From: Ehretia macrophylla
Taxonomy: Eukaryota; Streptophyta; Magnoliopsida; Boraginales; Ehretiaceae
Assembly: GCA_037974665.1 (NCBI GenBank)
Contig: CM075782.1
Coordinates: 44,675,851 to 44,739,850 of the forward strand
Direction of reading: 5' to 3'
Length of the DNA stretch: 64,000 nt
In this document: one piece after another, positions 17,953-59,692 of the stretch
Layout of the letters: each line of letters opens with the position of its first letter
Position numbering within the stretch: position 1 is the stretch's first letter
Position numbers and translations under genes: made by a program
Notes under the pieces: generated by a model
Database searches by the model: none
What the model saw: only the letters and a program-made list of their open reading frames with translations
Told to the model about the DNA's origin: nothing

Positions 17953-19270
17953 TTAGAATAGAAATAGAAAGCTTAATTTGTAAGTTCTATATATAGAAAG
18001 TTGGACCAGTAGCAATGTTGGCTTAGATTCAATAACAAGCACTTGAAAATCCAATCTATCAAATCCTAAACAAGTGTTACTGAAAAAAAAGGAAAAAAAA
18101 TGCTCACATAAGTCTGCTAAAGTTTGAGCCATTAATTAATCCCACATCATTATCAATCAATTTAATGCTTAAAACACTATCAGTTGTGCTACATCCATAC
18201 CATTCTTGTTGTTCTTCTTTGTCATCCACTTATTTTGTTGGCATAACCACCTAATTCACGATGAGCCCACCAATTTTCTGGCAAAATGACTACGGTTAAA
18301 AACCATCGATTCTTCACTTTAGCGTTATGCGCTTTGCTTCGTTTTTATAGAAAAGAATACTTAATGAGTGTTTGACCCTTCAAAAATGATGAGGGAAAGA
18401 CTGAGAGAAATGCATTACCAAGGCACATGTACCTTTAGGAGAATGAAAATTGAGTGGGAGCTGCAGTTTCTATTGATCTTAAACTTTTTTATCTTTTGGT
18501 ATAATGAATTATAATAGGTCCTTATTCGATCATTTCACTCAACTCTTAGGTGACCCGATCATAAATTATTTTCAATATATAAGTCGTTTCAGGGTAATTT
18601 TTAGGGTTTTTTAAATTAAAAAAATCAATTAATCCCTACTGAAAAAAAAAATTGTATATAAATGATAAATTTTATATTATAACAATCATCGAAACAAAAA
18701 TTCTAGACCCGCATGTATCAGCATTTAAGAGCTACTCATTATGATTAGTGAACCAAAGCTGTCTTTGTGAATGATATGCAAAAATTCCAGCGCAACCCAT
18801 TGACACAGCCATGGATCATGTGGTATTGTTATCGTGTTCACCACCAAACTAGAGGCCAGCTAAACATCTCTCGTGGGAAGTGCACAGCAAAACAAGGGAT
18901 CATATGTTTCCAGGTGTCGAATGCCGTGTATTGTTTTCCAAGTCTTTTTTTTATTTTTTATTTTTTATTTTTATTTTTTTTATGTGTTTTTGGTCTGTCT
19001 AGTTATTATCCACAACATATACTTGTATCAGCCCACATGGTATTATTCAAAATATGACCTCATTTTCATTCACAAATACACACAAGTCCACGTGACTTGA
19101 TTAGTTTCTGACTTGTGCTTGTTTCTCCACCATGCTCACCACAAGTTTATATTCCCATTTTTATTTTTTATTTTTATAACTTCAATCAATATGCTGCCTA
19201 AGTAGAGAGTCTAGAGACCATTGGGTAAATAATAATTTATTATTACGGGACGAACACATATCACTATTAT
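17953..19270. other. intergenic, no gene seen
   Basis: Mixed AT-rich DNA with no recognisable coding or RNA gene. The open frames near 18767-19100 run into low-complexity T/A tracts and look accidental. Confidence 0.5.
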
Positions 19271-19845
19271 GATATTCCAATTTTCAAAGATCAAGAATGG
19301 AATAAGCCTTATCCTCTTTATCGACAAGTAAAATAAGTCATAAACACAATTTTTAGAGACTGTACGTTACCTATTACTAGTTAATGTAATATCCCAATTC
19401 TCAAAGGCCAAGAACGGGACAAACCTTACCCTACTTGATCGACAAGTATAATAAGTCATAAACACAATTTTTAGAGACTGTGCGTTACCTACTACTAGTT
19501 AGTGTGATATCCCAATTCTCAAAGGCCAAGAACAGGACAAGCCCTACCCTATTCGATCGACAAGTATAATAAGTCATAAATACAATTTTAGAGACTATAG
19601 GTTACCTATCACTAGCTAGTGTGATATCCCAATTCTTATAGGGCAAGAAGGGGACATGCCTTACCTTACTTGATCGACAAGTATAATAAGTCATAAACAC
19701 AATTTTAGAGATTGTACATTACCTATCACTAGCTAGTGTGATATCCCAATTCTCAAAACCAAGAACGGGACAAGCCTTACCCTACTTGATCGACAAGTAT
19801 TATAAATCATAAACACAATGTTTAAAGATTGTATGTTACCAGTAA
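19271..19845 (+). repeat. tandem repeat, five copies of a ~117-bp unit
   Basis: Units begin at 19271, 19388, 19506, 19623 and 19740 (spacings 117, 118, 117, 117). Each runs through gatatcccaattctcaa, a cttgatcgacaagtataata block, 'agtcataaacacaattttta' and 'gttacctaycactagytagt'. The first copy is the most diverged. The unit has no open frame. It is a local minisatellite-like array, or the inside of an undefined element. Confidence 0.9.
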
Positions 19846-24190: not shown

Positions 24191-24550
24191 GGGTAAATTA
24201 CATAAATAGTTTTTATTATTTTTTAAAAATTTTAAAATCGTATTTATTATTTAAAATTATATATATTTTTTGTTATGTCAAAATTAATGAATTTAGTCAC
24301 TATTATTTAAAAAAATAATAATTCAGTTCCTATTTTTTGCAAAAAAAAATTCAATATAGCTAATTTAAATAGAGACTAAATTGATTTGTTTTTTTTAAAA
24401 AATAATAGAAACTAAATTGACTATTTTAAACGATAGAGATAAATTTGAAATTTTTGAAAAATAGCAGTGACTAAATTGACTAATTTTAAATAATATAGAC
24501 GAATTAAAAATTTTTGGAAAAGAATAAGGACCATTTGCTCAAATTTTTCA
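24191..24550. mobile_element. MITE, 'caaatagtcc' family, diverged copy
   Basis: It starts gggtaaattacataaatag and ends with an 'aataaggaccatttgctcaa' phrase, the same order as in the well-preserved copy at 34136-34548. The inside alternates 'actattattt' and 'aaataatagaaactaaattga' as an imperfect palindrome. It is more decayed than the other two copies. Confidence 0.5.
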
Positions 24551-29600: not shown

Positions 29601-32600
29601 GTGCACTTGATTTCAGAAATAAAATTGAGGGAATATAAATCTAATCTTTGAATTATTTTGTCTGAAAAGCACATGAAAACTGTCACAAACTTTCAGACAA
29701 GACTGAAATCTACATGTAATGGAATATGTAGGGGAATGAACTAGAATTATTTTAAGGTTTGGATTCTCGTACAACGCCAACTATCTTATAATGTTACTAC
29801 GAAAATTTTGATGGTTAATTGTCCAATCTAACACTGACGAAATAATGATAATAAGGGCTTAACAAACCATCTCTTATTTAGTAGTTATCACCACTGAACT
29901 TTGGGTCCCCTCTTACTATTATATTGGGTGTCATTCATAAGATTATAGAGTAAACGATTTAATACTTATTTGTATTTTGTCAAAAGTATATAATATTTTC
30001 TTGTGTTTTAAAACGTAACTAATTATCTCATTGTTTTATAAAAGTAGTTGAATATCCCCCTATATTTTAAAACGTAGCGGATTACCTTCCTGTGTTTTAA
30101 AAATGTAACTGAATATCCCTCTGTGTTTTAAAAATGAACCCTAAACCTTGTGTTTTTAACAAGAGGTATTCAACTACGTTTTTAAAAACACCCGAATACC
30201 TCCCTGTGTTTTAAAAATGAACCCTAAATCCTGTGTTTTTAACAATGGGTATTCAACTATGTTTTTAAAAATACAGGGGATATTCAACTACATTTTTAAA
30301 ATGTAAGGAGATAATCAGTTACGTTTTAAAACACAGAGGGTATTCAACTATTTTTATAAAATACAGGAAGATAATCAGTTACGTTTTAAAATACAGGAGA
30401 TATTGTACACTTTTGACAAAATATAAAAATATGTTAAATTATTAAAAATTATCATCTATTAATTTATCACCGTGAATTAAACAGTCAATTATTATTATTA
30501 AAAAGTAAGTGTCACGGGATAATCCGGGTCAATTATTTTGAATAACTTTAAGATCCCACAAGTGGGTTGGACCACATAGATTTGGTCTGTATTTTTCCCC
30601 AGGCTGTCAAGGGGCATAAGCTCCAGAAAGATGAGATCTGGCTTCATTCCGGTAGATGCAATGCAGGCATTAGCAGATGGCTACACTGACACAATGCCAT
30701 GACCTTATTAAATGGGGCAGTCATTGGGTCCGGCTTGCCTATCCGCTCTTATTAACACTAGATCCACATTATATAAATTTTACGCGTTGAGGGCCGGACC
30801 CAATAATTTTGCTTATTAAATGACTTTCGATCAGTTCGGAGAATTAAATGCCCACCGACGCTTTGTGAACCAAATGCTTCCACCTCGTGCATTTATTTCC
30901 AATGTTTGAACATCGTGTGTGGTTTCCGTATGAACCGTATTCATCATTCTCACATTAATTCACATGGCCCCGTAACTATTTTGCATAGCATTTGTCTAAT
31001 GTTTTTTTTAACATTATTCTAATGCATCTGATTACATATTCAGTTCACTAAATATTCTGATACTACTAAATTATAGAACGTCAAGAAAATTATTAATATT
31101 TACATGAACCTAATGCTTTTATTTTATCCCATTTGTGATAATAAATGTAAAAAGTAAAAAGTTGGTCATTATTAATGCTTACATGAACTTTAATGCTTTT
31201 ATTTTATCCAATTAACGATAATAAATGTAAAAAGTAAAAACTTGATAATAAATTCGAGTTGTGAAAATCGTCTTTATTAAATTTAAGATAAAAATGCATA
31301 AAATAGAGCTCAAATTGAGTTCAACTCTTTCCCTGTTCTCAATGCATAATAAAAGCTTAGTGCAATGGTGTACGCGTACTTGTTGGAGAAAAAAAGTCTA
31401 ATCATAATAACAATGTATTTAATACTCAAATGACTTTAATTCTTTTAGTTTATCCAATTTATAAAAAGTAAAAAATTGGTCACCCTTTTGAATTGTAGAA
31501 ACAGTAACTTTCAAAACGAAAGGTAAGATGGTAATACAACAAAACTCAAAATGAGTCCGATCATTTTTCAAACATTACACATAGTAGAAGTTGCATGTAC
31601 GGAGTTGTGTAGTGTCTATACTTGTTGGACAAAGAAAAAGTTGGATTTTAATAACAGTGTACTTCGTTTTGTTTAACCAGGAGCATTCGGAATAGCACGG
31701 AAAGGAGAAAACTAGGTTTCTTCACGTGTGGAACTGGAAATCCTATCGATGATTGCTGGCGCTGTGACCGGAATTGGATGCGCCACCGCAGACGTCTAGC
31801 AGATTGTGCTATCGGCTTCGGGCGTAATGCAATCGGGGGTCGTGATGGCAGGTAAGACTTGTGCATCCATATAAGGGCGAGTGGGGCTGTAGTTTTCACT
31901 GGCCCAAAATAACGCTAAAAAATCTAGAACTAATTAATCCCTACTGAGAAAAAATTTTGAATTCGCCCTGACAGGTACTACGTTGTCGCTGATCCAGGCG
32001 ATGACGACCCTGTAAATCCTCGACCTGGAACGCTTCGCCATGCCGTAATCCAAGATAGGCCTCTCTGGATTGTCTTCAAACGTGACATGGTGATCACCTT
32101 AAAGCAAGAGCTGATCATGAACAGCTTCAAGACAATTGATGGTCGTGGCACAAATGTTCACATCGCCAATGGCGCTTGCATCACAATTCAGTTTGTTACG
32201 AACATTATCATTCATGGTGTCCACATTCACGACTGCAAACCTACTGGCAATGCCATGGTGCGTAGCTCACCTACTCACTATGGATGGAGGACGATTGCTG
32301 ATGGCGACGCGATCTCCATTTTCGGTTCAAGCCATATCTGGATTGATCACAACTCGCTGTCTAACTGTGCTGATGGGCTTGTGGATGCCATTATGGGATC
32401 AACTGCAATTACCATCTCGAACAATTACTTCACTCACCACAATGAGGTCTTTTGCTGATCCGAGTTGATTATTTTATGCAAATATCATAAGACTTGACAA
32501 TCTTACAGAAACTGATTCTTCGTTTGTGAAATATCCGGACAGGTTATTTTATTAGGACACAGTGACTCTTATGTCAGAGACAAGGGTATGCAGGTTACAA

Positions 32601-33229: not shown

Positions 33230-34135
33230 TTCAAACTACATATACCGAGAGCAATAAGATTAAAGGAACGAAACAACAATCATCTATTGATCGCGCCACA
33301 GTAAAAATCCAGCCTATTTTCATCAACCTCCTTTCAATTTCTTGTTTCTACCTATCCTGTGATATCTGACAAGCTATATGTACATCTTTTTCATGGTACA
33401 AAGTCACCCATCCACGCCCCGTATTATGCCATTATTCCCCATTGTTGGTCAACCTCGGCCTGCTTCAACCTGAAAAATTTGATACCTCTGGAGCAGGCGC
33501 AGAAGCGTTGTTCCTTCATTCATCACATAATGCCATGTCTCATTTCCTCGCACACACTCCAAAAAAAAAAAAAGTTTAAAAAAAAAATCCCCTTGTTCCC
33601 CTGCAATTCGAGTGTCAAACCTCCTCGTTTATGTTATATCAAAGCCCAAATTATCAAACGGTTTGAGTTTAATTCTCCTCACATCTCTGCTTCCTTCATC
33701 CCACATTTTAGCCGAGTCAGGTGCATAGAACGGAAAGTGAGAAAAATGAAAGTGAATATAGAGCTCAATTTCCATATTGCTTCTTGTAACAAATGTTCAG
33801 AACTTGGTTATGATTCTTCTATAATGTAATTATGGTTTGTGTCATCTTTCTTTTTTCTTTCTTGTTTGGTCAGAATGGTTTATGTCATCTTAAAATTCTC
33901 TGTTTTTTTACTGTAAATGTCTGTTCATTTCAATTAATAGACAAATTTTACTTGATAGCATTGTGATGCAATGTTTTTTTTCCCCTTATCCAAGAGATAA
34001 TATTTGCTGTGAGACATTAAACATGTTGGAAGGATATTAATGCCGTAAGAGCAGAAGTTGAGTTGAATTGTCGAGTAATGAGTAGAGTGAAAGTGTCACG
34101 CTCTCAAACCAATTAACGTTACTAATTTAAAATTA

Positions 34136-34548
34136 GGGCAAATTAGACAAATAGTTCCTATTGTTTACAAAATTTGAACAAATAGTCCCTATTATTTTAG
34201 AAGTCACGAGGTTAGTCCCTATTGTTTGTAAAAGTTCCACTAATAGTCCCCATTGTTTCAAAAGTCACTCAGTTAGTCTCTATTATTTGCAAAAATCTCT
34301 CCATTAGTCCTCAATGCTTGCAAATGCATTTACAAATATTAAGGATTAATAGAGAGACTTTTGTAAACAATAAGGACTAATAGAGAAACTTTTATAAACA
34401 ATAAGGACTAATTGAATGACTTGTGAAACAATGAGGACTAATGGTGAAACTTTTACAAACAATGAGGACTAATTGTGTGACTTTTAAAACAATAAGGACT
34501 ATTTGTCAAAAATTTGTAAACAATAAGGACTATTTGTGAGATTTGCCC
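34136..34548. mobile_element. MITE, 'caaatagtcc' family, with 9-bp target duplication
   Basis: Starts gggcaaattagacaaatag and ends ctatttgtgagatttgccc, so the ends are inverted. The inside is a palindrome of 'tagtccctattgttt' phrases. TTAAAATTA lies on both sides (34127-34135 and 34549-34557). The sister position near 40041, 'atttaaaattaaatgttttg', lacks the insert. A 9-bp duplication and long inverted ends point to the MULE superfamily. Confidence 0.9.
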
Positions 34549-34955
34549 TTAAAATTAAATATTTTAACCTCATATTTACTCACTTAAAAGGATGAATTCA
34601 AATTATTATTTAAACCCGAGGCTAATTTGTAAATCACTTTTATAATATTTTTCGCAGCAATGTGGGACATTGTACAAGTGAGAATAAAATTCCACTTTCA
34701 TCACATGCGTCCAAATTGTGTTTCTATTTTAGTTGATTTTTATTTACAGGAAAGCGTAAAATAAATAATATATTACATACAAATATGTTACATTTGTCAA
34801 GAATCGATCTTTGAACCTCTTGCATACAAATATTTTAGTTGATATTTTGATGTTAATTAAAAAACATTTGCTAAATTAGGTTTAATCTCTTCTTTAAAGA
34901 TAAAAATAATTTCGAATACACTAATTACATGAAAATAATAATTTTTAACATAAAA

Positions 34956-35022
34956 TCCGATGTAGCACTGGTAATGTCTTAGAAATTCAACTTGACATCT
35001 GGGTTCAAACCCCGGCAGCGGA
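34956..35022 (+). pseudogene. tRNA-Glu(UUC)-like cassette, copy A1
   Basis: 67 bp. The 5' TCCGATG and 3' CAGCGGA form the acceptor stem with one mismatch. The T arm is CTGGG-TTCAAAC-CCCGG. The anticodon-loop equivalent still reads TTC. The D arm is shortened by several bases compared with a real tRNA, so it is a pseudogene or tRNA-derived repeat, not a working tRNA gene. A long poly-T tract follows 8 bases after the end, as a polymerase III terminator would. Confidence 0.65.
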
Positions 35023-35234
35023 AAACTTCTTTTTTTTTTTTTTTTTTTTTGTATATTTCAATTATTCCAATTACCCATAGAAACACATAGGATTTCTTCT
35101 TTTTGTTACTTTCCTATCTTCTTTTAACATAAATTGTGTAACACAATATAAAAAAATATCCCTCTCCAAAATTAAATTAGATCAAGTCTTAATAAGATTA
35201 AAAAAGGCCAAAAGTAGCTCAGAGTGCTATCGTA

Positions 35235-35590
35235 GAAGCCCTTTAGTCATTATATCGGTGAACTGATTAGTTGTGAAAATAAACTGAATTTATAACTCTC
35301 TCTCCCGCTGCTACTTTCTCCCTCGCAAAATGCACGTCAAGTGAAATATGCTTCGTGAAAGCATGAAAAATTGAATTAGTTGTTAAATGGATAACCCCGA
35401 TATTATCACACCACAAAGTGGATGGTTTCATGGACGGCAAAGAAGCAAACTACTACATCCAAGTTCAACACTAAAGCAAAATATAATGCAATTGCTTTTT
35501 CCAGGGCAGAGTTATGCTAGTTGAAATCACTCTCTTATAGGAACTTCAGCGACACCAACAATATGCCTCCTTAGGAAAAACTAGTTGTAA
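35235..35590. mobile_element. small fossil piece of a Copia element
   Basis: Short stretches read like the RNase H end of a Copia polyprotein. The part near 35240-35350 reads on the minus strand (DIMTKGL-like and KHI..DVHF-like) and the part near 35430-35560 on the plus strand. It is old, broken and rearranged. A related piece lies at 41950-42600 in the sister unit. Confidence 0.6.
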
Positions 35591-36275
35591 ACAAAATGGG
35601 TAATTTTATTTCAAAACCTTTCAACTTTTGTTCAACTAGAGCTAGACTTATACTTCTTGCAATATGTGACTTAGACTCTTTTTGTTAGGTTGACCTTAAA
35701 TTAATATTTATACTCACAATATTAATTTATAAATCACTCTCACAATGTCTCTCACATTAATGCAGGAATTTTTGCGTCCATTGCAAATTAAATTAATAGA
35801 ATTAAAGGAGACTATTTTCAATATTGCACTTTATTTTATTTAAGAACCAAACAAGTATCTTAAGGAAATTTTTAAAAATAGTTTGTCATTTTGAACATCA
35901 ATGAAAGAGTGATATGAGCCTCACATGAATATGAAACCTACACAAATATGGGACCTACAAGCAAGATGATCGGCCAGTTCTGATGGACGTTTTCTATATG
36001 GACCCTTGTCTTAATATTGGTTATGAATTATGATATTTATCAAACTTATTATTCATAAAAAATGTGTCATATTTGTAACTGCATTATTAATTCAAAATTT
36101 TAAATATTATTTGCGGATCATTACTCGTTCACAATGTATTACAAACCCTAGTTATAGAAGCCTGAGAAGCCTAATAATATTGTTTCGAATATTTTAAAAG
36201 AACAAAAAAGTTTATTTTGACTATAGTTTTATAGTTTCATTAGATAAAAAGGAAAAGCAAAGCATGACATCAAAA

Positions 36276-36343
36276 TCCGCTGTAGCACTTGGCAATGTCT
36301 AACGATTTCAACTTGACATCCGGGTTCGAACCCCGGCAGCGGA
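36276..36343 (+). pseudogene. tRNA-Glu(UUC)-like cassette, copy B1
   Basis: 68 bp, among the best preserved. The acceptor stem TCCGCTG/CAGCGGA pairs perfectly over 7 bp. The T arm CCGGG-TTCGAAC-CCCGG is perfect and holds a canonical B box (GGTTCGAACCC). The anticodon loop ATTTCAA gives UUC. The D arm is short. Eukaryotic tRNA-Glu also starts TCCG and has the CCGGGTTCGA T arm, which is why Glu is proposed. Confidence 0.7.
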
Positions 36344-36491
36344 ATTTAATTTTTGTGTTTGTAGTGATGCAAATGATTTTTCTTTTGCTTCCTTATCAAC
36401 GGTAGATTTAGAATTATTGGGGTTAAACACATCATTTAATTAACACTCATACGAATAATATTTTTTTAATTAATTTTCACACTAAAATTAC

Positions 36492-36982
36492 GGGAAAAAA
36501 ATATTTTAGTCCCTCATAAATATGATAAATATCAAATAGGTTGTTGTAAATTTAAAAATCACTCCACAAGTCCCTATACTTTAATTTCTTTTGTAATTTT
36601 TGATGGAAAACGGTATAATGCACTAAAATGCCATTTTTTCCCTTTCAATTTGATCATTGTCTAACTATTTGTTAGACCTTTTTTTTTTTTTTTTTAATTG
36701 ATGTCCAACTTATTTGTTGGGATATGACTACACTAATGTAACTCTTTTTATCCAGCAAGCAAATGGCCACAATAAATTTTTTATAGCCAAAACTCCTTCC
36801 CGGCGTGTCATTACATGAAGCAATGAAATTTTGCAAGCATGACAAATTTACTAATCTACATTACATTTTAAGGGCAAAAATTGACATTTTAGTACATTAT
36901 GCATTTTTCCATAAAAAATTATATAGTAGATATTAAAGAGCAGGGACTTGTGAAAGAAAATTTCAAATAGGTTTTTTTTTTT
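36492..36982. mobile_element. MITE, 'attttagtccctca' family, copy 1
   Basis: Starts gggaaaaaaatattttagtc. Both arms contain 'cactaaaatgccattttt' or its complement and 'aagtccctatactttaat' or its complement. The flanks taaaattac (left) and taaaaatac (right) look like a 9-bp target duplication with one difference. The right arm is shorter than in the copy at 45210. Confidence 0.7.
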
Positions 36983-37508
36983 CTAAAAATACTTTAACAA
37001 TACACATCTCATGAGAAATCGATAGCTGAAAAATAAAATAGAACTCACACAATACAAAAGTAAAGACACAACCTCAATAGGGGTACGACTTTCATTTCTA
37101 GTTTCAGTTGGACTATATAAAGCTGACATATTCCTCAGTCTATTTACTTATCTAAAAGGGTGAATTTAAATCATTATTTAAAATCATGGCTAACTTATAA
37201 ATCACTTTCATAATATATTTTATAGCAATGTGGGACATGGTACAAGTGAGAATAAAATTCCAGTTTCATCAAATGTGTCCAAATTGTGTTTCTATTTTAG
37301 TTGATTTTTTTTATTATTTAAATGGAGGCCTAAGTCATATAATAATATATCACATATAAAGATGTTATATCTAGCGAGAATCGATCTTTGAACCTATCGC
37401 ATACAAATATTTTAGTTGATATTTTGATGTTAATTAAAAAGCATTTGCTAAATTAGAAATCATTTGGAATACATTAATTAAATAAAAATAACTACTCGTA
37501 ACATAAAA

Positions 37509-37575
37509 TTTGTTGTAGCACTGGTAATGTCTTAGAATTTCAACTTGACATTCGGGTTCAACCCCCGGCAATGGA
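37509..37575 (+). pseudogene. tRNA-Glu(UUC)-like cassette, copy A2
   Basis: 67 bp. The acceptor strands are TTTGTTG and CAATGGA. All seven positions can still pair when G-U is allowed, and one C-G pair has become T-A on both strands. The anticodon loop keeps TTC. The T arm has one change in its loop side. All acceptor-stem changes are C-to-T or G-to-A, so methyl-cytosine decay explains them as well as selection would. Confidence 0.6.
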
Positions 37576-38103
37576 AAACATTTTTTTTTAATATATATTT
37601 CAATTATTCCAACTACCCATAGAAAAACATAGGACTTCTTCCTTTTGTTACTTCCCTATCTTCTTTTAACATAAATTGTGTAACGCAATATAAAAAAATA
37701 TATATATTATTCTCTCCAAAATTAAAGCCTCACCTAAAGCCTCCAACAACACCACCAATACAGGTGGTCAACAATATGGTGGTAAAAAAATAGAAATAGT
37801 AGTAACGGCCAAGCGACGAGCGGCAAACATACAACACAGCCAAACCTCATACCAGTTTATTATGATGAGCTGTACAACGCAAACAAACCTCATACTAGCC
37901 AAATTTCACACTAATACAGGGCATCATAAAAGTGAGAAAAAATTTCACTTTTATCACATACGCCAAAATTTTGTTTCGATTTTGTTGATATTATGATGTT
38001 ATTAAAGCATTTTCTTAATTCGGATTGATCTTTCCTCTCAAAAATTTCATTCGCCGTGGTTAAGTAAAAATGAAAAGATTATTATTTAGTTTTAAATTCT
38101 CCT

Positions 38104-38135
38104 ATTGACATCCGGGTTCAAATCCCGGCAGCGGA
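38104..38135 (+). pseudogene. tRNA-Glu-like cassette, copy C1, 3' half only
   Basis: Only the T arm CCGGG-TTCAAAT-CCCGG and the acceptor strand CAGCGGA remain, preceded by 'cctattgacat' as in copy C2. The 5' half is replaced by unrelated AT-rich sequence. Confidence 0.55.
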
Positions 38136-38691
38136 AAGAAAAGAAAATGAATATTTGCGTCCACTGCCAAATTAAATCAAGGGAATTAATGGAAGCTATT
38201 TTGAATATTGCACTTTATTTTATTCAAGAACTAAACAAGTATCTTAAGGAAATTTTTAAAAAGAGTTCGTCATTTTTAATGTCCGTGAAAGAGTGATATA
38301 AGCCTCACAAATAAGACGGCCGACGAGTTCTAATAGACATTTTCTATATGAACGCTTGTCTTAATACCGATCAATTCTAATGGATGTTTTCTATATGGAC
38401 CCTTATCGTAATATTGATTATGAATCATGATATTTATCAGGCTTATTATTCATCCAAAAAATGTCATGTACATAACTGTATTATTAATTCAAAATTATAA
38501 ATGTTATTCGCGATCATTACTCATTCACAATGTATTACGAATCCTAGCTATGGAAGCCTGAAAAGCCTAATAATATTGTTTCGAATATTTTTAAAGAACA
38601 AAAAAAATTTATTTTGACTATAGGTTTTCTTGCTAAGTATTCTAACTAGAATTATTAGATAAATAGGAAAAAGCAAAGCTTGACATCAAAA

Positions 38692-38759
38692 TCCGCTGTA
38701 GCACACGGCAATGTCTTACGATTTCAACTTGACATCTGGGTTCGAACCCCGGCAGCGGA
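38692..38759 (+). pseudogene. tRNA-Glu(UUC)-like cassette, copy B2
   Basis: 68 bp. Perfect 7-bp acceptor stem, anticodon loop ATTTCAA, T arm CTGGG-TTCGAAC-CCCGG (one wobble pair). The flanks match those of B1 (upstream 'agcaaagcttgacatcaaa', downstream 'catgcaaatgatttttcttt'). Confidence 0.7.
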
Positions 38760-38903
38760 AATCCTTTCTTGTGTTTGTAGTCATGCAAATGATTTTTCTT
38801 TTGCTTCCTTATCAACGGCGGATTTAGAATTATTGGGGTTAAATACATAATTTAACATTCATACGAATAATACTTTTTAAATTAATTTTCACACTAAAAG
38901 AAC

Positions 38904-39187
38904 GGGAAAAATTATTTTAGTCCCTCAAAAATATGATAAGTCTCTAATAGGCCTTTGCAAATTTGAAAATCATTCCACAAGTCCCTACACTTTAATTTCT
39001 TTTGTAATTTTTTATGGAAAACAAAATAATACACTAAAATATCATTTTTGCCCTTGCAATTTGACTATTGGCTAACTATTTATAGGCCTTCGTTTTTTAT
39101 TAATTCCCAACTTATTCGTTGGGATATAACTGTACTAATGTAATTTTTTTTAACAAAGAAACATCACAATAAATGTTCTATAGCCAA
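38904..39187. mobile_element. MITE, 'attttagtccctca' family, copy 2, left arm
   Basis: Starts gggaaaaattattttagtcc and runs like copies 1 and 4 until 'tatagccaaaactc', where it meets the duplicated pectate lyase flank. The break marks a junction between array units. Confidence 0.65.
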
Positions 39188-39415
39188 AACTCTTTCTTGT
39201 TTGGTCAGAATGGTTTATGTCATCTTAAAATTTTCTGTTTTTGTACTGTAAATGTCTGTTCATGTCAATTAATAGACAAATTTTTCTTGATAGCATTGTG
39301 ATGCAATGTATTTTTCCCTTATTCTAGAGATATTATTTGCTGTCAGACATTATTCATGTTGGAAGGATATTGATGTTGTAAGAGCAAGAGTTGAGTTGAA
39401 TAATCGAGTAGTAAC

Positions 39416-39994
39416 TGTTAAGCTGTAAAGCTCATTTGAAGTCAAAAAGCAACAATAACTTTTGTTGCTTTGTTGACAAAAGAGAAAAGTAGCAGATAAA
39501 AAAGACAAAAGCAATGGAAAAAAGAAAGAAAAGTTTATGCACAAACTTTGTTAGGCGCATGCAATTGCAATTTGGTTTCACACTGCGCAATGAAGATTTT
39601 GCACGTTGGCTTTGCAGAAGAATGAGCCTATAAATATGTGGTTCATTCTTCTAGTTTTGGCATCAACAAAAACATAGCAAATCAGAGAGAAAAATTATAA
39701 GTTTTCTCCTGAGTATTTTCTCTTCCTCTTTTGTTGTTCTATATTTGTGAGTGAGAGTTAGTTTCTCATATTATTTGAGAGAGTGATATTGTTCTCTCCT
39801 TATATTAGCGAGAAGGTTATTGTAAAATACTCCACATCATAGTGAAATCCTCCATTATTTGCCTGTGATTTTTCTCTCGATTTGTTTGAGGATTTTCCAC
39901 GTAAATCTTGTGTCTCTACTTTTTCTGTTCTCATTATATTTTAGCTGCGTGATACTGCTTGTCCCCAACCATTCCGTTGCGCCGATATCCAATA
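39416..39994 (+). mobile_element. solo LTR (Copia-like) with 5-bp target duplication
   Basis: 579 bp beginning TGTTAAGC and ending CCAATA, flanked by GTAAC on both sides (39411-39415 and 39995-39999). It contains a TATA-like 'cctataaatatg' and the phrase 'ttttccacgtaaatcttgtg', which I associate with Copia LTRs. No internal region is present, as left by recombination between two LTRs. Orientation is inferred from the TATA-like site. The uninterrupted sister site is near 34085-34095. Confidence 0.75.
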
Positions 39995-40395
39995 GTAACT
40001 AAAGTAAAAGTGTCACGCACCAAACCAATTAACGTTATAGATTTAAAATTAAATGTTTTGACCTCATATTTACTCACTTAAAAGATTGAATCTAAATTAT
40101 TGTTTAAGTCCACAACTCACTTATAAATCACTTTTATAATATTTTTCATAGCAATGTAGGACATGGTAGAAGTGAGAATAAAATTCCACTTTCATCACAT
40201 GCGTCCAAATTGTGTTTCTATTTCAGTCGATTTTTTTTATTTAAAAAGAGGTCTAAACCAAATAATAAGATCTTCGAACCTCTCGCATAGAAATATTTTA
40301 GTTGATATTTTGATGTTAATTAAAAAGCATTTGCTAAATTTGGTTTGATCGCTTCTACAATGATTACAATGAAAATAATAATTTAGAATATAAAA

Positions 40396-40455
40396 TCCGC
40401 TGTAGCACTGGCAATGATTTCAACTTGACATCCGGGTTCAAACCCCGGCAGCGGA
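40396..40455 (+). pseudogene. tRNA-Glu-like cassette, copy A3
   Basis: 60 bp. Perfect acceptor stem TCCGCTG/CAGCGGA and T arm CCGGG-TTCAAAC-CCCGG, but about eight bases of the anticodon stem's 5' side are missing (gcaatg-atttcaac). A long poly-T tract follows closely. Confidence 0.6.
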
Positions 40456-40513
40456 AACCTTTTTTTTTTTTTTTTTTGTATATTTCAATTATTCCAATTA
40501 CCCATAGAAAAAC

Positions 40514-41802
40514 GGAAGAATGCCAAAAAACCCCATAGGTTCTCCCTAAAATCTCAGATTCCCCCATGAGCTTTTTAATTTACCCATATTCCCCCATGAC
40601 ACTTATCTCTCCCAAACAATACTTAAGGCTAAAAGGATAATTCAGTCATCTCAATTTGAAACCATAAATTAATTTTTGATGAGAAAAAAAAAAATCTGCC
40701 TCTTCCCAAGGCCCCAGCTCCTTCCACCATTGCCCCCATTCCCCCAATCTGTATTTTTTTTTTTATAGCTATTTTTGGTTGAAATTATTGGCATAAAAAG
40801 GGGCAACCAGCCTAATCATCCTTCCATAGACTCATCTATTGCAAGATCATTCATCAAGTGTAGGGAAAATTCTTCTACGAGACTGTGGCAGATTTGTTAA
40901 GTTGTTATTTTATAAAATTAATTCATATTAGTTTGTATCGTACAGATATGTTATATCAGAATGTTTGAAATTTCTCTTTTTACTAATTTGACCTTACAAA
41001 ATTTTAAATAAATTACTATGATGTCCCTACTTATAATAATTGGTTAACATTTATCAACTAATTAAATCACTTTTTGTCTATGTATATGTGACAAATTTGT
41101 CACATGTCTCATAAAAGAAGAACCCCAAGTGTAGTGTCTGTACCAAAACAAGGGAAAAAGGACAAAGTACTGTTGTATGAAGTACGGCATGAAGTACGAC
41201 ATGCAAAGTGATACCGCCATGGCTGCAAAAATCATTGGTTTTGCCTAGCCAAGACACAAGACATTTTGCCTCTTATTGCTTGATGATGCGCCTTCTTGAA
41301 GAATATTACCATCACGGCCCCCATATAGTGCATAGATTACTTCTCGAAACTTAATATGCTGCTTGACATTTTGGCCCAATTAGTCATTTAGAACGTAGCT
41401 CTTACACCAAAATACAATGTACAATGGTCTTCGGTTTCTTTGAAGAACTCAAGTATATTTTAGTATATAATATTAGTGTGTGTGCGTGTGTATTTGTGCC
41501 AAGGTGGGTTGGTGTGTGTCCTGACCAAGAAAAAAAAAGGTGGATGTGTGTGACTCTGTTATGTATGGCGTGTGACTGTGTGTGTAGAGAGAGGAGAAAA
41601 AGAGAAGAAGGGATAGATGACAGATGATTGATTTTTTATAATAATTTTTTTAATTTTATTTAATCAAAAGACAGAAATACCGTTTAGTTGTTAGGATTGT
41701 TTGGCAGAATAGGTGACTGTAGGGGAATGTGGGTAAATTAAAAAGCTCATGGGAGAATCTGGAATTTTAGGGAAAACTCATGGGGTTTTTTGGCATTCTC
41801 CC
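40514..41802. mobile_element. non-autonomous MULE-type element, 1289 bp, 10-bp target duplication
   Basis: The left end ggaagaatgccaaaaaaccc and the reverse complement of the right end gggagaatgccaaaaaaccc differ at one position, and the inverted ends extend for about 70 bp. ATAGAAAAAC flanks both sides (40504-40513 and 41803-41812). Sister units near 35067 and 37607 have the empty site. The interior (~1.1 kb) contains no transposase. It carries a 67-codon open frame at 41424-41627 that I do not recognise. The ends resemble those of the MULE at 47995, so that family's transposase may have moved it. Confidence 0.85.
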
Positions 41803-41949
41803 ATAGAAAAACATAGGACTTCTTCTTTTTGTTACTTCCCTATGTTCTTTTAACATAAATTGTGTAACACAATATAAAAAAAATGTTCTTCTCTCCAAAA
41901 TTAAATCAGACCAAGTCTTAAGAAGATAAAAAAAGACCAAAAGTCGCTC

Positions 41950-42600
41950 AGAGAGCTACGATGAAAGCGTGTAAAAGGTCGTGTATTTCTTGTATGTTAA
42001 TCAACAATGTACACCTTTGCTTTTTACAAGCTAATAGTAAGGAGATAAATGCAAGAGAAATACGAGTCCTATACAAAGTTCTACATAAGTGTTCTATGTA
42101 TATCTGTTGACATGATTCAAATTTACACTTAATCCAAAAGAAAGTTCCAAGAGCGATACGACTCCCATCACGCTCCTTCAAGCGAAATTGGACTATGAAC
42201 CATAAGCTTACACTGAATGTTGCCAAATCGTGTATGAGAATGCCCCTTGGTCATTATATCGGCGAGCTGATCAGTTGTGGAAATAAACCGAATTTACAAC
42301 TCTCTCTCTCCTATTGCAACTTTCTCCCTCACAAAATGCACGTCAAGTTCAATATGCTTCGTGAAAATATGAAAGATTGAGTTAAATGTTAAACAAGTAA
42401 CTCCGATGGTATCACACCACAAAATGGGTGGTTTACTGGGCTGCAAAGAAGCAAACTACCACCTCTAAGTCCAACACCAAAGTAGAATATCATGCAATTG
42501 TTTTTGCTAGGGCAGAGTTATGCTAGCTGAAATCACTCTCTTACAAGAACTTCAACGATAACAACAATATGCTTCCTTGGGAAAAATCAGTGGTAACAAA
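41950..42600. mobile_element. fossil piece of a Copia element (LTR part plus pol end)
   Basis: On the minus strand, the part near 42240-42380 reads like the end of a Copia polyprotein (ADIMTKG, KHIELDVHFV). The part at 41955-42230 looks like adjoining non-coding and LTR sequence. On the plus strand, 42420-42560 reads like an upstream piece of RNase H (KKQTTTSKS, EYHAIVFARAELC). Old, broken and rearranged; related to 35235-35590. Confidence 0.6.
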
Positions 42601-42995
42601 ATGGGTAATTTTATTTCAAACCCTTTCAACTTTTGTTCGCCTTAGACTTATTCAAGGTTCCTTCAATAACGAGAGTTAAACTCTATACTTCTTGCAATAT
42701 ATAACTTAATTAGACTCTTTCTATTAGGGTAAACATAAATTAATATTTATACCCACAACATATATTTATAAACCACTGTCATAATATTTCTCACACCAAT
42801 GCAAGATATCATAAAAGTGAGAAAAAATTCCATTTTCATCACATACGTCCAAATTTTGTTTATATGTCCAAATTTTATATCTATTGTGTTGATATTGTGA
42901 TGTTAATTAAAGCATTTTCTTAATTCGGTTTGATTTTTCCTTACAAAAATTTCATTCACCGTGCTTAAGTGAAAATAAAAAGATATTTCTTAATA

Positions 42996-43376
42996 GAGTA
43001 AACGACTTAATACCTCCTGTGTTTTGTCAAAAGTGTATAATACCTTCTGTGTTTTAAAACGTTACTGATTATTCCCCTTTATTTTATAAAAGTACCTGAA
43101 TACTTCATGTATTTTATAAGCTAATTACCCCCTGTATTTTAAAAACGTAGTGAAGATTCTCCTGTATTTTTAAAAATATAATTGAATATATGCTGCTTAT
43201 TTAAACAAGGGGTATTCAGTTACGTTTTTAAAAACACAGGGGGTAGCCACGTTTTTAAAACACATGGGGTAATCAACTTATTTATAAAATACAAGGAGGT
43301 AATCAACTACGTTTTAAAATATAAGAGGTATTGTACACTTTTAACAAAATATAAGAGAATATTAAGTCGTTTACTC
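42996..43376. mobile_element. MITE, 'gagtaaacga' family, with 9-bp target duplication
   Basis: 381 bp, starting gagtaaacgacttaatacct and ending aagtcgtttactc, so the ends are inverted. Both arms consist of repeated 'gtgttttaaaacgt' phrases. TTCTTAATA lies on both sides (42987-42995 and 43377-43385). The insertion is six bases upstream of tRNA-like copy C2. Confidence 0.9.
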
Positions 43377-43390
43377 TTCTTAATATGGAG

Positions 43391-43457
43391 TCCGTTGTAG
43401 CACTGACAATGTCTTAAAATTTCCTATTGACACTTGGGTTCAAATCCCGGCAGCGGA
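43391..43457 (+). pseudogene. tRNA-Glu-like cassette, copy C2
   Basis: 67 bp. Acceptor TCCGTTG/CAGCGGA pairs with one G-U. T arm TTGGG-TTCAAAT-CCCGG. The anticodon region has changed (atttcctattga), although a TTC triplet survives. Its upstream flank resembles that of the A copies; its downstream flank does not. Confidence 0.6.
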
Positions 43458-43978
43458 AAAGCAATTTTTCTTCCATTGCAAATTAAATTAAGGGAATTAA
43501 CGGAAACTAATTAGAATATTGTACTTTATTTTATTTAAGAACCAAACAAGTATTGTAGAGAAATTTTTAAAAGAGTCTCATTTTGAACATCCATCAAAGA
43601 GTAATATGAGCCCCCACATTAACTCAAAACCCACATGATACGAGACCTACAACCAAGACGACCTATCAGTTCTGATGGACGTTTCTGGACCCTTGTCTTA
43701 ATATTGGTTGTGAATTATGATATTTATCAGGCTTATTATTCATCAAAAAATTGTCAAGTTCAAAATTATATTATCAATTCAAAATAATAAATATTATTCA
43801 CGGATCATTACTCATTCTCAACGTATTACAAACCCTAGTTATGGAAGCCTGAGAAGCCTAATAATATTTGTTTCGAATATTTTCAAAGAAAAAAAAAAGT
43901 TTTATTTTGACCATAGTTTTTTTGCTAAGCATTCTGTTTTCATTATAGGAATAAGAAATAGCAAAGCATGACGTCAAA

Positions 43979-44045
43979 TCCGCTGTAGCACTTGGCAATG
44001 TCTTATGATTTCAACTTGATATCCGGTTCGAACCCCGGCAGCGGA
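43979..44045 (+). pseudogene. tRNA-Glu(UUC)-like cassette, copy B3
   Basis: 67 bp. Perfect acceptor stem, anticodon loop ATTTCAA kept, and one base lost in the 5' side of the T stem (ATCC-GGTTCGAACCCC). The flanks are those of the B context. Confidence 0.65.
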
Positions 44046-44200
44046 ATTATATTTTGATGTTTGTAGTCATGTGCAAATGATTTCTCTTTTCCTTCCTTCT
44101 CAACGGCGAATTTAGAATTATTGGAGTTAAACACATAATTTAACATTCATACATTCATACGAATAATATTTTTTAAATTAATTTTCACACTAAAAGTACA

Positions 44201-44475
44201 GACAAAAATCATTTTAGTCACTCAGAAATATGATAAGTCTCAAATAGGTCCTTGTAAAATTGAAAATCTCTCCACATGTCCCTACAATTTAATTTCTTTT
44301 GTAATTTTTTGATGGAAACGAAATAATGCACTAAAATGCGATTTTTTCCCTTGCAATTTGACCATTGTCTAACTATTTGTAGGACTTTATTTATTGATGT
44401 CCAACTTATTTGTTAGGATATGACTGGACTAATGTAATTTTTTAAAACCAAGAAGCAAATTGTTACAATAAATTA
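44201..44475. mobile_element. MITE, 'attttagtccctca' family, copy 3, left arm
   Basis: It follows the B3 block in the same position as copies 1 and 2 follow B1 and B2. It breaks off at 'gttacaataaatt' into A/T-rich sequence (44476-44640). That stretch ends with a phrase (ttattttacagcagacaaa) shared with 58825-58860. Confidence 0.6.
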
Positions 44476-45080
44476 ATAATTTATTAATATTTTTTTTAAA
44501 AAAAATTAATAAAATAATAATTTTAACTACTTTTTCACTATTACATCCAAATAACAATTTTTCAGTGTGACAATCAAACATCGAAAAATATTTTATTTTT
44601 CAAAAAAATATTTTCTATCAGCAAGTTATTTTACAGCAGACAAAAGGAGCCTTAAGAAAATTTGTAAAAGAATCCGTCATTTTGAACGTGCATGAAAAAG
44701 TGATATGAGTCCCATAAAAAATATAGATCCCACACGAATATGGGACCCACAAGCAAGACGATATATCAATTTTAATGGACGTTTTCTGTATGGACCCTTT
44801 TCTCAATATTGATTATAAATTATGATATTTATTTTTTCATAAAAAAAAATATCATGTTCATAATTGTATTATTAATTCAAAATTATAAATGTTTCAAAAT
44901 TGTAAATGTTCACGGAACATTACATTCACAATGTATTACAAAACCTAACTATGGAAGCCTAATAATATTGTTTTGAATTTTTTTGTAAAGAACAAAAAAG
45001 TTTTATTGTGACTATTTTCTTTTTTTTACCGACTATTGCTTTCACTAGATAAATAGGAAAAAGCAAAGCATGACATCAAA

Positions 45081-45148
45081 TCCGCTGTAGCACTTGGCAA
45101 TGTCTTACGATTTTAACTTGACATCCGGGTTTGAACCCCGGCAGCGGA
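45081..45148 (+). pseudogene. tRNA-Glu-like cassette, copy B4
   Basis: 68 bp. Perfect acceptor stem TCCGCTG/CAGCGGA. The T arm is CCGGG-TTTGAAC-CCCGG. The anticodon-loop equivalent is now ATTTTAA, so the Glu triplet is lost here. B-context flanks. Confidence 0.65.
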
Positions 45149-45209
45149 AATACATTTTCATGTTTGTAGTCATGCAAATGATTTTTCTTTTGCTTCCTTA
45201 TCAACGGCG

Positions 45210-45727
45210 GGGAAAAATTATATTAGTCCTTCAGAAATATGATAAGTCTTAAATAGACCCTTGTAATCCTCACAAGTCCCTACACTTTAATTTCTTTTAT
45301 AATTTTTTATGGAAATCAGAATAATGAACGCACTAAAATGCCATTTTTTTCCCTTACAATTTGATCATTGTCTAACTATTTGTTGAAATTTTTTTTTAAT
45401 TGATGTCCAACTATTCGTTAGAATATGATTGCACTAATGTAATTTTTTTAACCAAGAAGCAAACGGTCAAAATAAAATTTTTATAGCCCAAACTCCTTCC
45501 TGGCATGTCATTATATGAAGCAATGAAAATTTACAAGCATAACAAATTTGCTAATATACATTCCATTTTAAGGGCAAAAATTGCCATTTTAGTGCATTTA
45601 TTCATTTTTTTTCATAAAAACATACAATAGATATTAAAGTGCAAGGGACTTTTGAAAAAAAATTTAAATTCATAAAAATTTGTTTGAGATTTATCATATT
45701 TCTTAGGGACTAAAATAGTATTTTCCC
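45210..45727. mobile_element. MITE, 'attttagtccctca' family, most complete copy
   Basis: About 518 bp. The left arm gggaaaaattatattagtcc and the right arm ggactaaaatagtattttccc are inverted. Inside, 'cactaaaatgccattttttt' faces 'aattgccattttagtgcatt'. It is followed by taaatatac, similar to the 9-bp flank of copy 1. Non-coding. The left flank has been rearranged. Confidence 0.75.
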
Positions 45728-45902
45728 TAAATATACCTTAACAATACACGTCTCAGGAGAAATCATAGCAGAAAAGTAAAATAAAACTCACAATTCAAAT
45801 GGAAAGAAACGGACCTCTTCCTTGGTCTATTTTCCAGGTTATTCTTATAGAAGACCCACTTATTAGAAGCGTATGTATGAAACAACACACCCATAAACAC
45901 AT

Positions 45903-59124: not shown

Positions 59125-59692
59125 AACCTCTTTATACTTTTGTAAAGTTGTATAATATCCCCTGTAATTTTAAAAGTGTACGACACCCTTCTGTGGTTTC
59201 TGAAACTAAGTACAATAGTCTCCTGTAGTTTTAAAAGTGCACAGTACCCCCTTGTGGTTTCTAAAACTAAGCACAACAGTCCACTCTGTCAAAAAATCCA
59301 TATATTTAACAAAAAGTATGATGCACGTGCGTTAAATATGTTTTTTTTGCTTAAATTATTAATTGTTTAGACAAAAATACCCATTTTTTCCAACCCTAAA
59401 GAGAAAAATATGTGTCATATAAGAGTATTTTTGTCTAAATAATCAATAATTTAAGTGAAAAAGTTTTGAATAATCGCATTTAACGCTCGTACATCACATT
59501 TTTTGTTAAAATAAACATAATTTTTTTTATAGAGGGGGGTTATTGTGCTTAGTTTCAAAAACCATAGGCGGTATTGTATACTTTTAAAACCACTGGAGGC
59601 TATTGTGCTTAGCTTCAAAAATCACAAGGGTACCATACATTTTTAAAATCACAATAAAGTTTTGTGTAACTTTACAAAAGCACAAGAAGGTT
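59125..59692. mobile_element. palindromic MITE, 'aacctctttatac' family
   Basis: About 568 bp. The left arm (aacctctttatacttttgtaaag) and the reverse complement of the right arm (aaccttcttgtgcttttgtaaag) match well. Both arms hold repeated 'tgtagttttaaaagtgcac' and 'gtggtttctaaaactaagca' phrases or complements. The AT-rich centre has matching 'attaattgtttagacaaaaa' and 'ttgtctaaataatcaataat' arms. No gene. The right end abuts the Gypsy LTR exactly. Confidence 0.75.

Follow-up and report, generated by a model that had tools for sequence, protein, structure and literature searches.

A cluster of tRNA-Glu-like cassettes in Ehretia macrophylla, probably a tandem array of worn pseudogenes

Plant tDNA clusters and the Ehretia array

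Tandem clusters of tRNA genes (tDNAs), some of them with pseudogenes, are known in Arabidopsis and other plants (PMC12308677, PMC10701932, PMC11700998, PMC12652284) and in eukaryotes generally (PMC2888827). In this work, we analyzed a stretch of 64,000 nucleotides from Ehretia macrophylla (contig CM075782.1, forward strand, positions 44,675,851 to 44,739,850), in the following called the window, in which a cassette of about 68 bp resembling tRNA-Glu(UUC) occurs nine times. All copies lie on the plus strand and span exactly 34956-45148; eight are near full length and one is a half copy. The array looks like one more plant cluster of tRNA genes or pseudogenes, apparently of Glu type, and with its tRNA-derived, closely spaced copies in the same orientation and in repeated units it fits the known kind as a worn example. 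We consider it rather probable that the cassettes form a tandemly duplicated cluster of pseudogenes derived from nuclear tRNA-Glu, i.e., of tDNA relics in transposon-rich DNA. With nine copies in 10.2 kb and gaps of 0.5 to 2.9 kb between neighbors, the array does not reach the three-per-kb cluster rule of PMC11700998, and three of the eight neighbor pairs lie within the 1-kb rule of PMC2888827. We did not find this cassette described in the titles and abstracts searched, which cover the literature in part and are no proof of absence, and pattern scans of viral contigs and prokaryote genomes gave no match, as expected for a plant-like sequence.

The SYY (tRNA-Ser/Tyr/Tyr) cluster on Arabidopsis chromosome 1 likewise consists of tandem multi-tDNA units with tRNA-like pseudogenes (PMC12308677, PMC11700998, PMC10701932), and 13 of its 54 clustered tRNA-Tyr genes give tRNA-like RNAs (PMC12308677). 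It holds 27 units and two isotypes, with most tRNA-Tyr genes sound, whereas the Ehretia array has about three units, one type and no sound copy. The tRNA-Cys cluster on Arabidopsis chromosome 5 is also a small tandem array of tDNA units, 84-94% identical to each other, with a pseudogene at one side of the array and overlapping annotated transposons (Helitron) (PMC10701932). In contrast to its units of about 420 bp, each with a high-confidence tRNA-Cys, those of Ehretia are larger and diverged and place three cassettes in two unrelated settings.

Self-comparison of the window resolved an array from about 33856 to 45810 (borders approximate) in which three tandem units, diverged from each other, are followed by part of a fourth. 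According to their flanks, the copies fall into three classes, X, Y and Z, which we number by unit (Table 1) and which succeed one another along the array as X-(Y lost)-Z, X-Y-Z, X-Y-Z, Z. Tandem duplication of larger units accounts for most of the nine copies. Between Y2 and Y3, 28 of 31 cassette positions and 170 of 199 positions of the upstream flank are identical; because the surroundings of Y2 match those of Y3 on both sides, a deletion explains the half copy better than a partial insertion does.

Table 1. Cassettes and tandem units of the array (window positions; units were placed by self-comparison)
Feature	Position	Strand	Remarks
Cassette X1	34956..35022	+	67 bp; one acceptor-stem mismatch; 21-T run shortly downstream
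Cassette Z1	36276..36343	+	68 bp; Rfam tRNA 28.8 bits, slightly below the 29-bit cut-off
Cassette X2	37509..37575	+	67 bp; most changed among the X copies
Cassette Y2	38105..38135	+	3' half only; 5' half apparently deleted
Cassette Z2	38692..38759	+	68 bp; Rfam tRNA 30.2 bits, sole copy over the cut-off; ARAGORN tRNA-Glu TTC
Cassette X3	40396..40455	+	60 bp; 7-bp anticodon-arm deletion; otherwise 60/61 identical to Z1
Cassette Y3	43391..43457	+	67 bp
Cassette Z3	43979..44045	+	67 bp; one T-stem base missing
Cassette Z4	45081..45148	+	68 bp; anticodon position is TTT
Tandem unit 1	33856..37069 (approximate)		X1, Y deleted, Z1
Tandem unit 2	37141..39196 (approximate)		X2, Y2, Z2
Tandem unit 3	39191..44474 (approximate)		X3, Y3, Z3; enlarged by two inverted-repeat insertions
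Partial fourth unit	44651..45810 (approximate)		Z4 and downstream part

A covariance model, R1, was built from the eight near-full copies; Y2 was excluded from it as well as from the cassette alignment (A2), the folds and the pair counts. R1 scored its own training rows at 73.2-93.5 bits and recovered Y2, outside the training set, as a match at 38053-38136 (33 bits, E = 2e-6). There was no tenth copy in the 64 kb, the next of the 22 listed matches reaching 12.1 bits (E = 0.68). Nine copies found in this way exclude chance as the origin of the tRNA-like matches.

The preliminary description of this DNA, made from the sequence alone, had already reported nine same-strand copies, eight full and one half, some of them from duplication of larger units, and both the coordinates and the block structure bear this out. 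Its account of the cassette also held: the 7-bp acceptor stem, given as TCCGCTG/CAGCGGA in most copies, has an exact CAGCGGA end in eight of nine copies and an exact TCCGCTG end in five of the eight near-full ones, and the T arm, described as perfect or nearly so, pairs in 100% of cells. The D arm is indeed short in all eight near-full copies, with a D stem of 3 bp. Reading the sequences against what we take to be the box A and box B consensus, we found the B box GGTTCRAAYCC in seven of nine copies and, at the A-box position, TAGCACTTGG or a near form in all eight near-full ones. TTC was confirmed as the usual anticodon, since ARAGORN at a relaxed threshold (-ps85) called Glu(TTC) in six of the eight near-full copies, Lys(TTT) in Z4 and nothing in X3 with its 7-bp loss in the anticodon arm.

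In an alignment of the cassette to 14 reference tRNAs, nuclear Glu-TTC was best (score 69, 50/69 identical), followed by Glu-CTC (66), Asp-GTC (58) and Gly-TCC (55); the organellar Glu references scored lower than nuclear Glu, at 46 (mitochondrial) and 41 (chloroplast). This agrees with the derivation from nuclear tRNA-Glu proposed earlier. A poplar small RNA given in PMC4189724 has the sequence TCCGTTGTAGTCTAGTTGGT, the 5' end of nuclear tRNA-Glu.

Judged by sequence, no copy is a sound tRNA or looks like a working one. At default settings, ARAGORN called only Z2 (Glu) and a tRNA-Asn at 38050, which overlaps the half copy Y2 and which we take for an artefact; the Rfam match there lies in an odd register. 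The Rfam tRNA model (cut-off 29 bits) gave four matches at E<=10, namely Z2 and Z1 (Table 1), the Y2 region with 26.1 bits and X1 with 20.2 bits; X2, X3, Y3, Z3 and Z4 were absent from this listing, and nothing passed the cut-off in a full-window Rfam scan with standard filters. The high-confidence set of tRNAscan-SE starts at 50 bits or more overall (PMC8450103), while the best copy here has 30.2 bits, on the Rfam scale that differs from that of tRNAscan-SE, and its D stem is 3 bp long. For the canonical anticodon stem, 77.1% of cells are paired, compared with 98.2% for the acceptor stem, and further departures from a sound tRNA are the 7-bp deletion of X3, the lost T-stem base of Z3 and the altered anticodon position of Z4. 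Among three options offered before, a tRNA pseudogene family is the best.

Flanks and copying of the cassette

Flank scores were compared with a background of 300 random pairs, in which the 95th and 99th percentiles for 400 bp were 51 and 61. Upstream, X-Y scores of 161, 145 and 185 lay far above this background; downstream, scores of 39, 31 and 34 showed that the flank is not shared. X-Z scores (12 pairs on each side) were 34-53 upstream and 29-52 downstream, with two upstream pairs (53 and 51) and one downstream pair (52) at the line of the 95th percentile and none reaching the 99th. For flanks of 150 bp, the top X-Z scores were 39 upstream and 34 downstream (95th percentile 33, 99th 47). 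In the 60 bp upstream, X2 scored 24, 24, 25 and 21 against the Z copies, near the 95th to 99th percentiles (22 and 26), and a few shared bases are possible there. Y-Z flanks were likewise at background. X and Y hence share the upstream flank only and Z shares neither, just as the preliminary description had stated for its three classes.

The cassettes themselves relate differently. X1 is identical to the Z copies at 59-61 of 67-68 positions, X2 at 55-56 of 67-68 and X3 at 58-60 of 60-61, and each X is nearer to the Z copies than to Y3, with distances to the latter of 0.182 (X1), 0.241 (X2) and 0.164 (X3). A FastTree phylogeny of the eight cassettes placed X3 beside the Z copies on a near-zero branch (supports 0.71-0.87). 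As the X cassettes are nearer to Z than to Y, yet only an X-Y upstream flank was detected, at least one copy step probably was flank-free.

To judge how long co-duplicated flanks stay visible, we simulated divergence of a co-duplicated 400-bp flank of X1, which was detected in 60 of 60 cases up to a distance of 0.6, in 29 of 60 at 0.8 and in 6 of 60 at 1.0. The mean between-class cassette distance of 0.150, which includes the Y3-Z pairs, corresponds to a flank distance of about 0.47 when scaled by the Z cassette rate, 0.32 of the flank rate. Co-duplicated flanks would be detectable at this distance, so X and Z most likely do not stem from duplication of a larger segment, and we reject a purely segmental origin of all copies for X versus Z. 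Flank scores and simulation together support the earlier suggestion that a unit of tRNA length spread by itself, at least in one move without detectable flanks. The array carries an internal control for this, in that the more diverged X and Y cassettes keep their upstream flank while the less diverged X and Z share none, and it may serve as a small test case for the spread of tDNA-like sequences.

Ectopic gene conversion between very old cassettes with decayed flanks would require no flank-free move, but we consider it improbable. In its favor, X3 is 60/61 identical to Z1 despite its X-type flanks. However, X3 retains a one-base-shorter D loop and an A at A2 column 53, as do X1, X2 and Y3, and for this reason seems to be the X copy with the fewest changes and not a product of conversion. 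Moreover, a shared tract of 68 bp is short for gene conversion.

Returning to a pseudogene cluster with a flank-free step, block order and flank relations are direct observations, whereas for the order and causes of events we infer the following. One tRNA-Glu(UUC) gene would have lost part of its D arm, with a weakened anticodon stem; as the D arm is short throughout the near-full copies, this loss would have preceded the spread. The sequence of about 68 bp would then have been copied between the X/Y and the Z setting, in one direction or the other and with no flanks that we could detect, either by reverse transcription of an RNA polymerase III (Pol III) transcript or by insertion during DNA repair. 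A duplication that took in the cassette and its upstream flank would have given rise to X and Y, whose common sequence does not extend downstream beyond the cassette. Unequal exchange may have tandemly amplified the X-Y-Z block to about three copies and an extra Z, and transposon insertions and deletions might finally have deprived unit 1 of its Y cassette and Y2 of one half.

A minimal retroposon resembling a short interspersed nuclear element (SINE), with the cassette as tRNA head that is transcribed by Pol III to the T-run, reverse-transcribed by a long interspersed nuclear element (LINE) and inserted elsewhere in the genome, would likewise explain the flank-free X-Z copy. Long T-runs directly follow all three X copies, X1 is accompanied by an exact direct repeat of 12 bp, TTTTAACATAAA, at -1 and +100 (9 bp in X2), and a tRNA-related head with boxes A and B, as in SINEs, was recognized by reading the sequences. 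We nevertheless hold such an element to be unlikely. The best direct repeats, as candidates for the target-site duplication that flanks a SINE, scored 12 in X1, 9 in X2, 7 in X3 (elsewhere, without the X1/X2 repeat) and 9 in Y3 (at +239). In about 400 random pairs per copy, the median was 7 and the 95th percentile 9, with maxima between 12 and 21, so that 12 bp are attainable by chance; Z1 and Z2 with 6 and Z3 and Z4 with 7 did not exceed the null median. No body or tail is common to the classes, downstream similarity between classes being at background, and Y has the cassette but not the 100-bp X sequence. Sharing of X and Z consensus leader and trailer, after the leaders of Z1 and Z2 had been brought into register by removing one A, had P = 0.10 each, which is not significant, and 0.039 jointly, and the remaining ~54 kb of the window hold no further copy. 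The SINE-like unit proposed before thus found no support in a body or tail across classes or in direct repeats clearly beyond chance. If the genome held many flank-free copies, this would point to a very small retroposon.

Plant tRNA-derived SINEs have in common with the cassette the tRNA-derived stretch with box-A-like and box-B sequences and the T-run seen after the X copies, but they share a body and tail that are missing here, where the cassette is confined to one array in the window (PMC8825457). Therian tailless tRNA retropseudogenes are likewise tRNA-derived without an oligo(A) tail; they are truncated at single-stranded positions and have flanking duplications, in contrast to the full 3' acceptor strand without clear duplication observed in this work (PMC5322556). 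Helenus elements, which are terminal-repeat retrotransposons in miniature (TRIMs), carry tRNA-like long terminal repeats (LTRs) with A and B boxes inside the repeat, as in Ehretia, yet their LTRs are paired while the Z setting is unrelated to that of X/Y; their criteria are two LTRs, a primer-binding site, a polypurine tract and a 5-bp duplication (PMC10886601). Considering an LTR/TRIM identity by inspection only, with no LTR program run, we recognized neither LTR ends, a binding site nor an LTR pair with polypurine tract around the cassettes. An element with terminal inverted repeats formed by the acceptor strands was discarded, because the T arm and the A and B boxes fit a tRNA better.

Conservation, folding and transcription signals

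Several points weigh against a plain cluster of relics. The assignment to tRNA-Glu depends on the 14 reference tRNAs used, among which Gly-TCC and Glu-TTC are tied in identity alone at 50/69 each (scores 55 versus 69). X-Y similarity is weak in the 60 bp beside the cassette (29, 20 and 24; 99th percentile 26), so an X-Y duplication running unbroken into the cassette is not demonstrated, and the 60-bp scores of X2 with Z are no lower. The route of the flank-free step is a proposal, and ectopic conversion could likewise make X and Z alike. Finally, the Z cassettes vary less than their flanks, in 8/67 versus 223/702 columns (Fisher 2.6e-4; gapped columns excluded, only classes Z and X tested), and none of 570 equally long windows elsewhere varies as little. 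A plain relic would not predict this conservation, which therefore counts against our reading. The contrast weakens when the cassettes are compared with the adjacent 150 bp at either end (8/67 versus 43/177, P = 0.023), and the X cassettes show none (10/60 versus 73/449 columns, P = 0.62; 213 of 331 outside windows as low). C to T accounts for five of the eight Z changes.

The Z copies might hence be functional Pol III units for a small, non-translating tRNA-like RNA under selection, with X and Y decaying, although we assign this a low probability. Apart from the reduced Z rate and its rarity among outside windows, CAA occurs within 10 bp upstream in all four Z copies and in none of the five others (4/9 overall, background 0.19), and the folds of Z1 (z -2.6) and Z4 (z -2.5) surpass those of shuffles, only one of 200 folding at least as well in either case. 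However, the four Z copies are related, and their CAA amounts to a single event; there are also conserved stretches immediately downstream of the cassette, one of them about 80-120 bp after the Z start. The numbers of shuffles folding at least as well were 6 for X3 and 9 for Z2, and 20 for Y3, 26 for Z3, 92 for X1 and 100 for X2. Z2 has no T-run within 25 bp, Z3 is short of its T-stem base, the anticodon position of Z4 is changed, covariation does not exceed shuffles, and gene conversion could yield the same pattern. The probabilities that we attach to these rivals overlap with that of the favored pseudogene cluster and do not sum to one, since it is compatible with conversion or with selection on Z.

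Further signs of transcription were counted over all nine copies, of which those within a class are not independent and for which the counted leader of Y2 is not a true leader. TTTT follows within 25 bp in seven of nine copies (background 0.27), and TATA occurs at -50 to -21 in three of nine (background 0.17). With A-box-like and B-box sequences and a T-run after most copies, transcription by Pol III appears possible. A more novel possibility is a mobile unit without body, in which a complete Pol III transcript of tRNA length inserts itself with no SINE body or tail while the Z lineage is still selected as transcription unit; we regard it as quite improbable.

Pairing is high in acceptor stem and T arm, but between 85 and 174 of 500 shuffles reach the observed pairing and covariation, hence there is no evidence of covariation. 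An alternative fold with an ATGTC/GACAT stem pairs 98.0% of cells versus 94.1% for the cloverleaf, and neither beats shuffles in covariation. A further idea is that the cassette is an RNase P/RNase Z processing signal in the manner of mascRNA, spread through a repeat and releasing neighboring RNAs. Acceptor stem and T arm indeed pair better than the anticodon stem, and X3 resembles mascRNA with 23.9 bits to mascRNA-menRNA, the one copy listed, which is far under the family cut-off of 42.5. But C-to-U changes opposite G give G-U pairs automatically, and no flank RNA family reached its Rfam cut-off, so that with pairing at shuffle level this earlier suggestion is hardly likely at all.

Surroundings of the array

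The array lies in transposon-rich DNA with a G+C content of 33.6%. When eight stop-to-stop frames were compared with Pfam, six matched and two did not; the matches were a pectate lyase piece at 31961-32458, a MULE transposase, Copia gag and reverse transcriptase pieces, a retrotransposon gag and an integrase zinc-binding piece. Together with the G+C content, these types of genes and transposons suggest plant nuclear DNA. Between X and Y of units 1 and 3, at 35270-35532 and 42225-42562, both strands carry remnants of Copia RNase H (tblastn with the window's own Copia: minus strand E = 1e-8 and 2e-8, plus strand 0.05 and 0.008), a rearranged old retrotransposon fragment that was duplicated together with the array.

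Upstream of X1 and X2, the flanks contain an additional ~100 bp (34727-34843 and 37295-37420) with TTTTAGTTGAT at both borders, of which X3 keeps one exact copy; by inspection, Y lacks this stretch. Its appearance is that of a SINE inserted on the minus strand after the X-Y duplication.

Three inverted-repeat insertions similar to miniature inverted-repeat transposable elements lie in or beside the array, at 34125-34560, 40514-41802 and 42995-43377, the last ending 13 bp upstream of Y3. By eye, each is bordered by an apparent direct repeat of 9-11 bp, which we take to be typical of Mutator-type elements. Self-complementary sequences with repeats of ~30 bp form two families, one at 1923-2342 and 34125-34560 (78% identical) and another at 29957-30439 and 42995-43377 (parts 74-75% identical). 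Further self-complementary stretches were seen at 24204-24536 and 59125-59692. An imperfect 13-bp inverted repeat, GCATGACATCAAA/TTTGTAGTCATGC, surrounds Z4 at 45068-45080 and 45163-45175 and may be due to chance. Outside the cassette array, another tandem array at 19270-19840 is built of a 117-bp unit in 4.9 copies with 86% matches.

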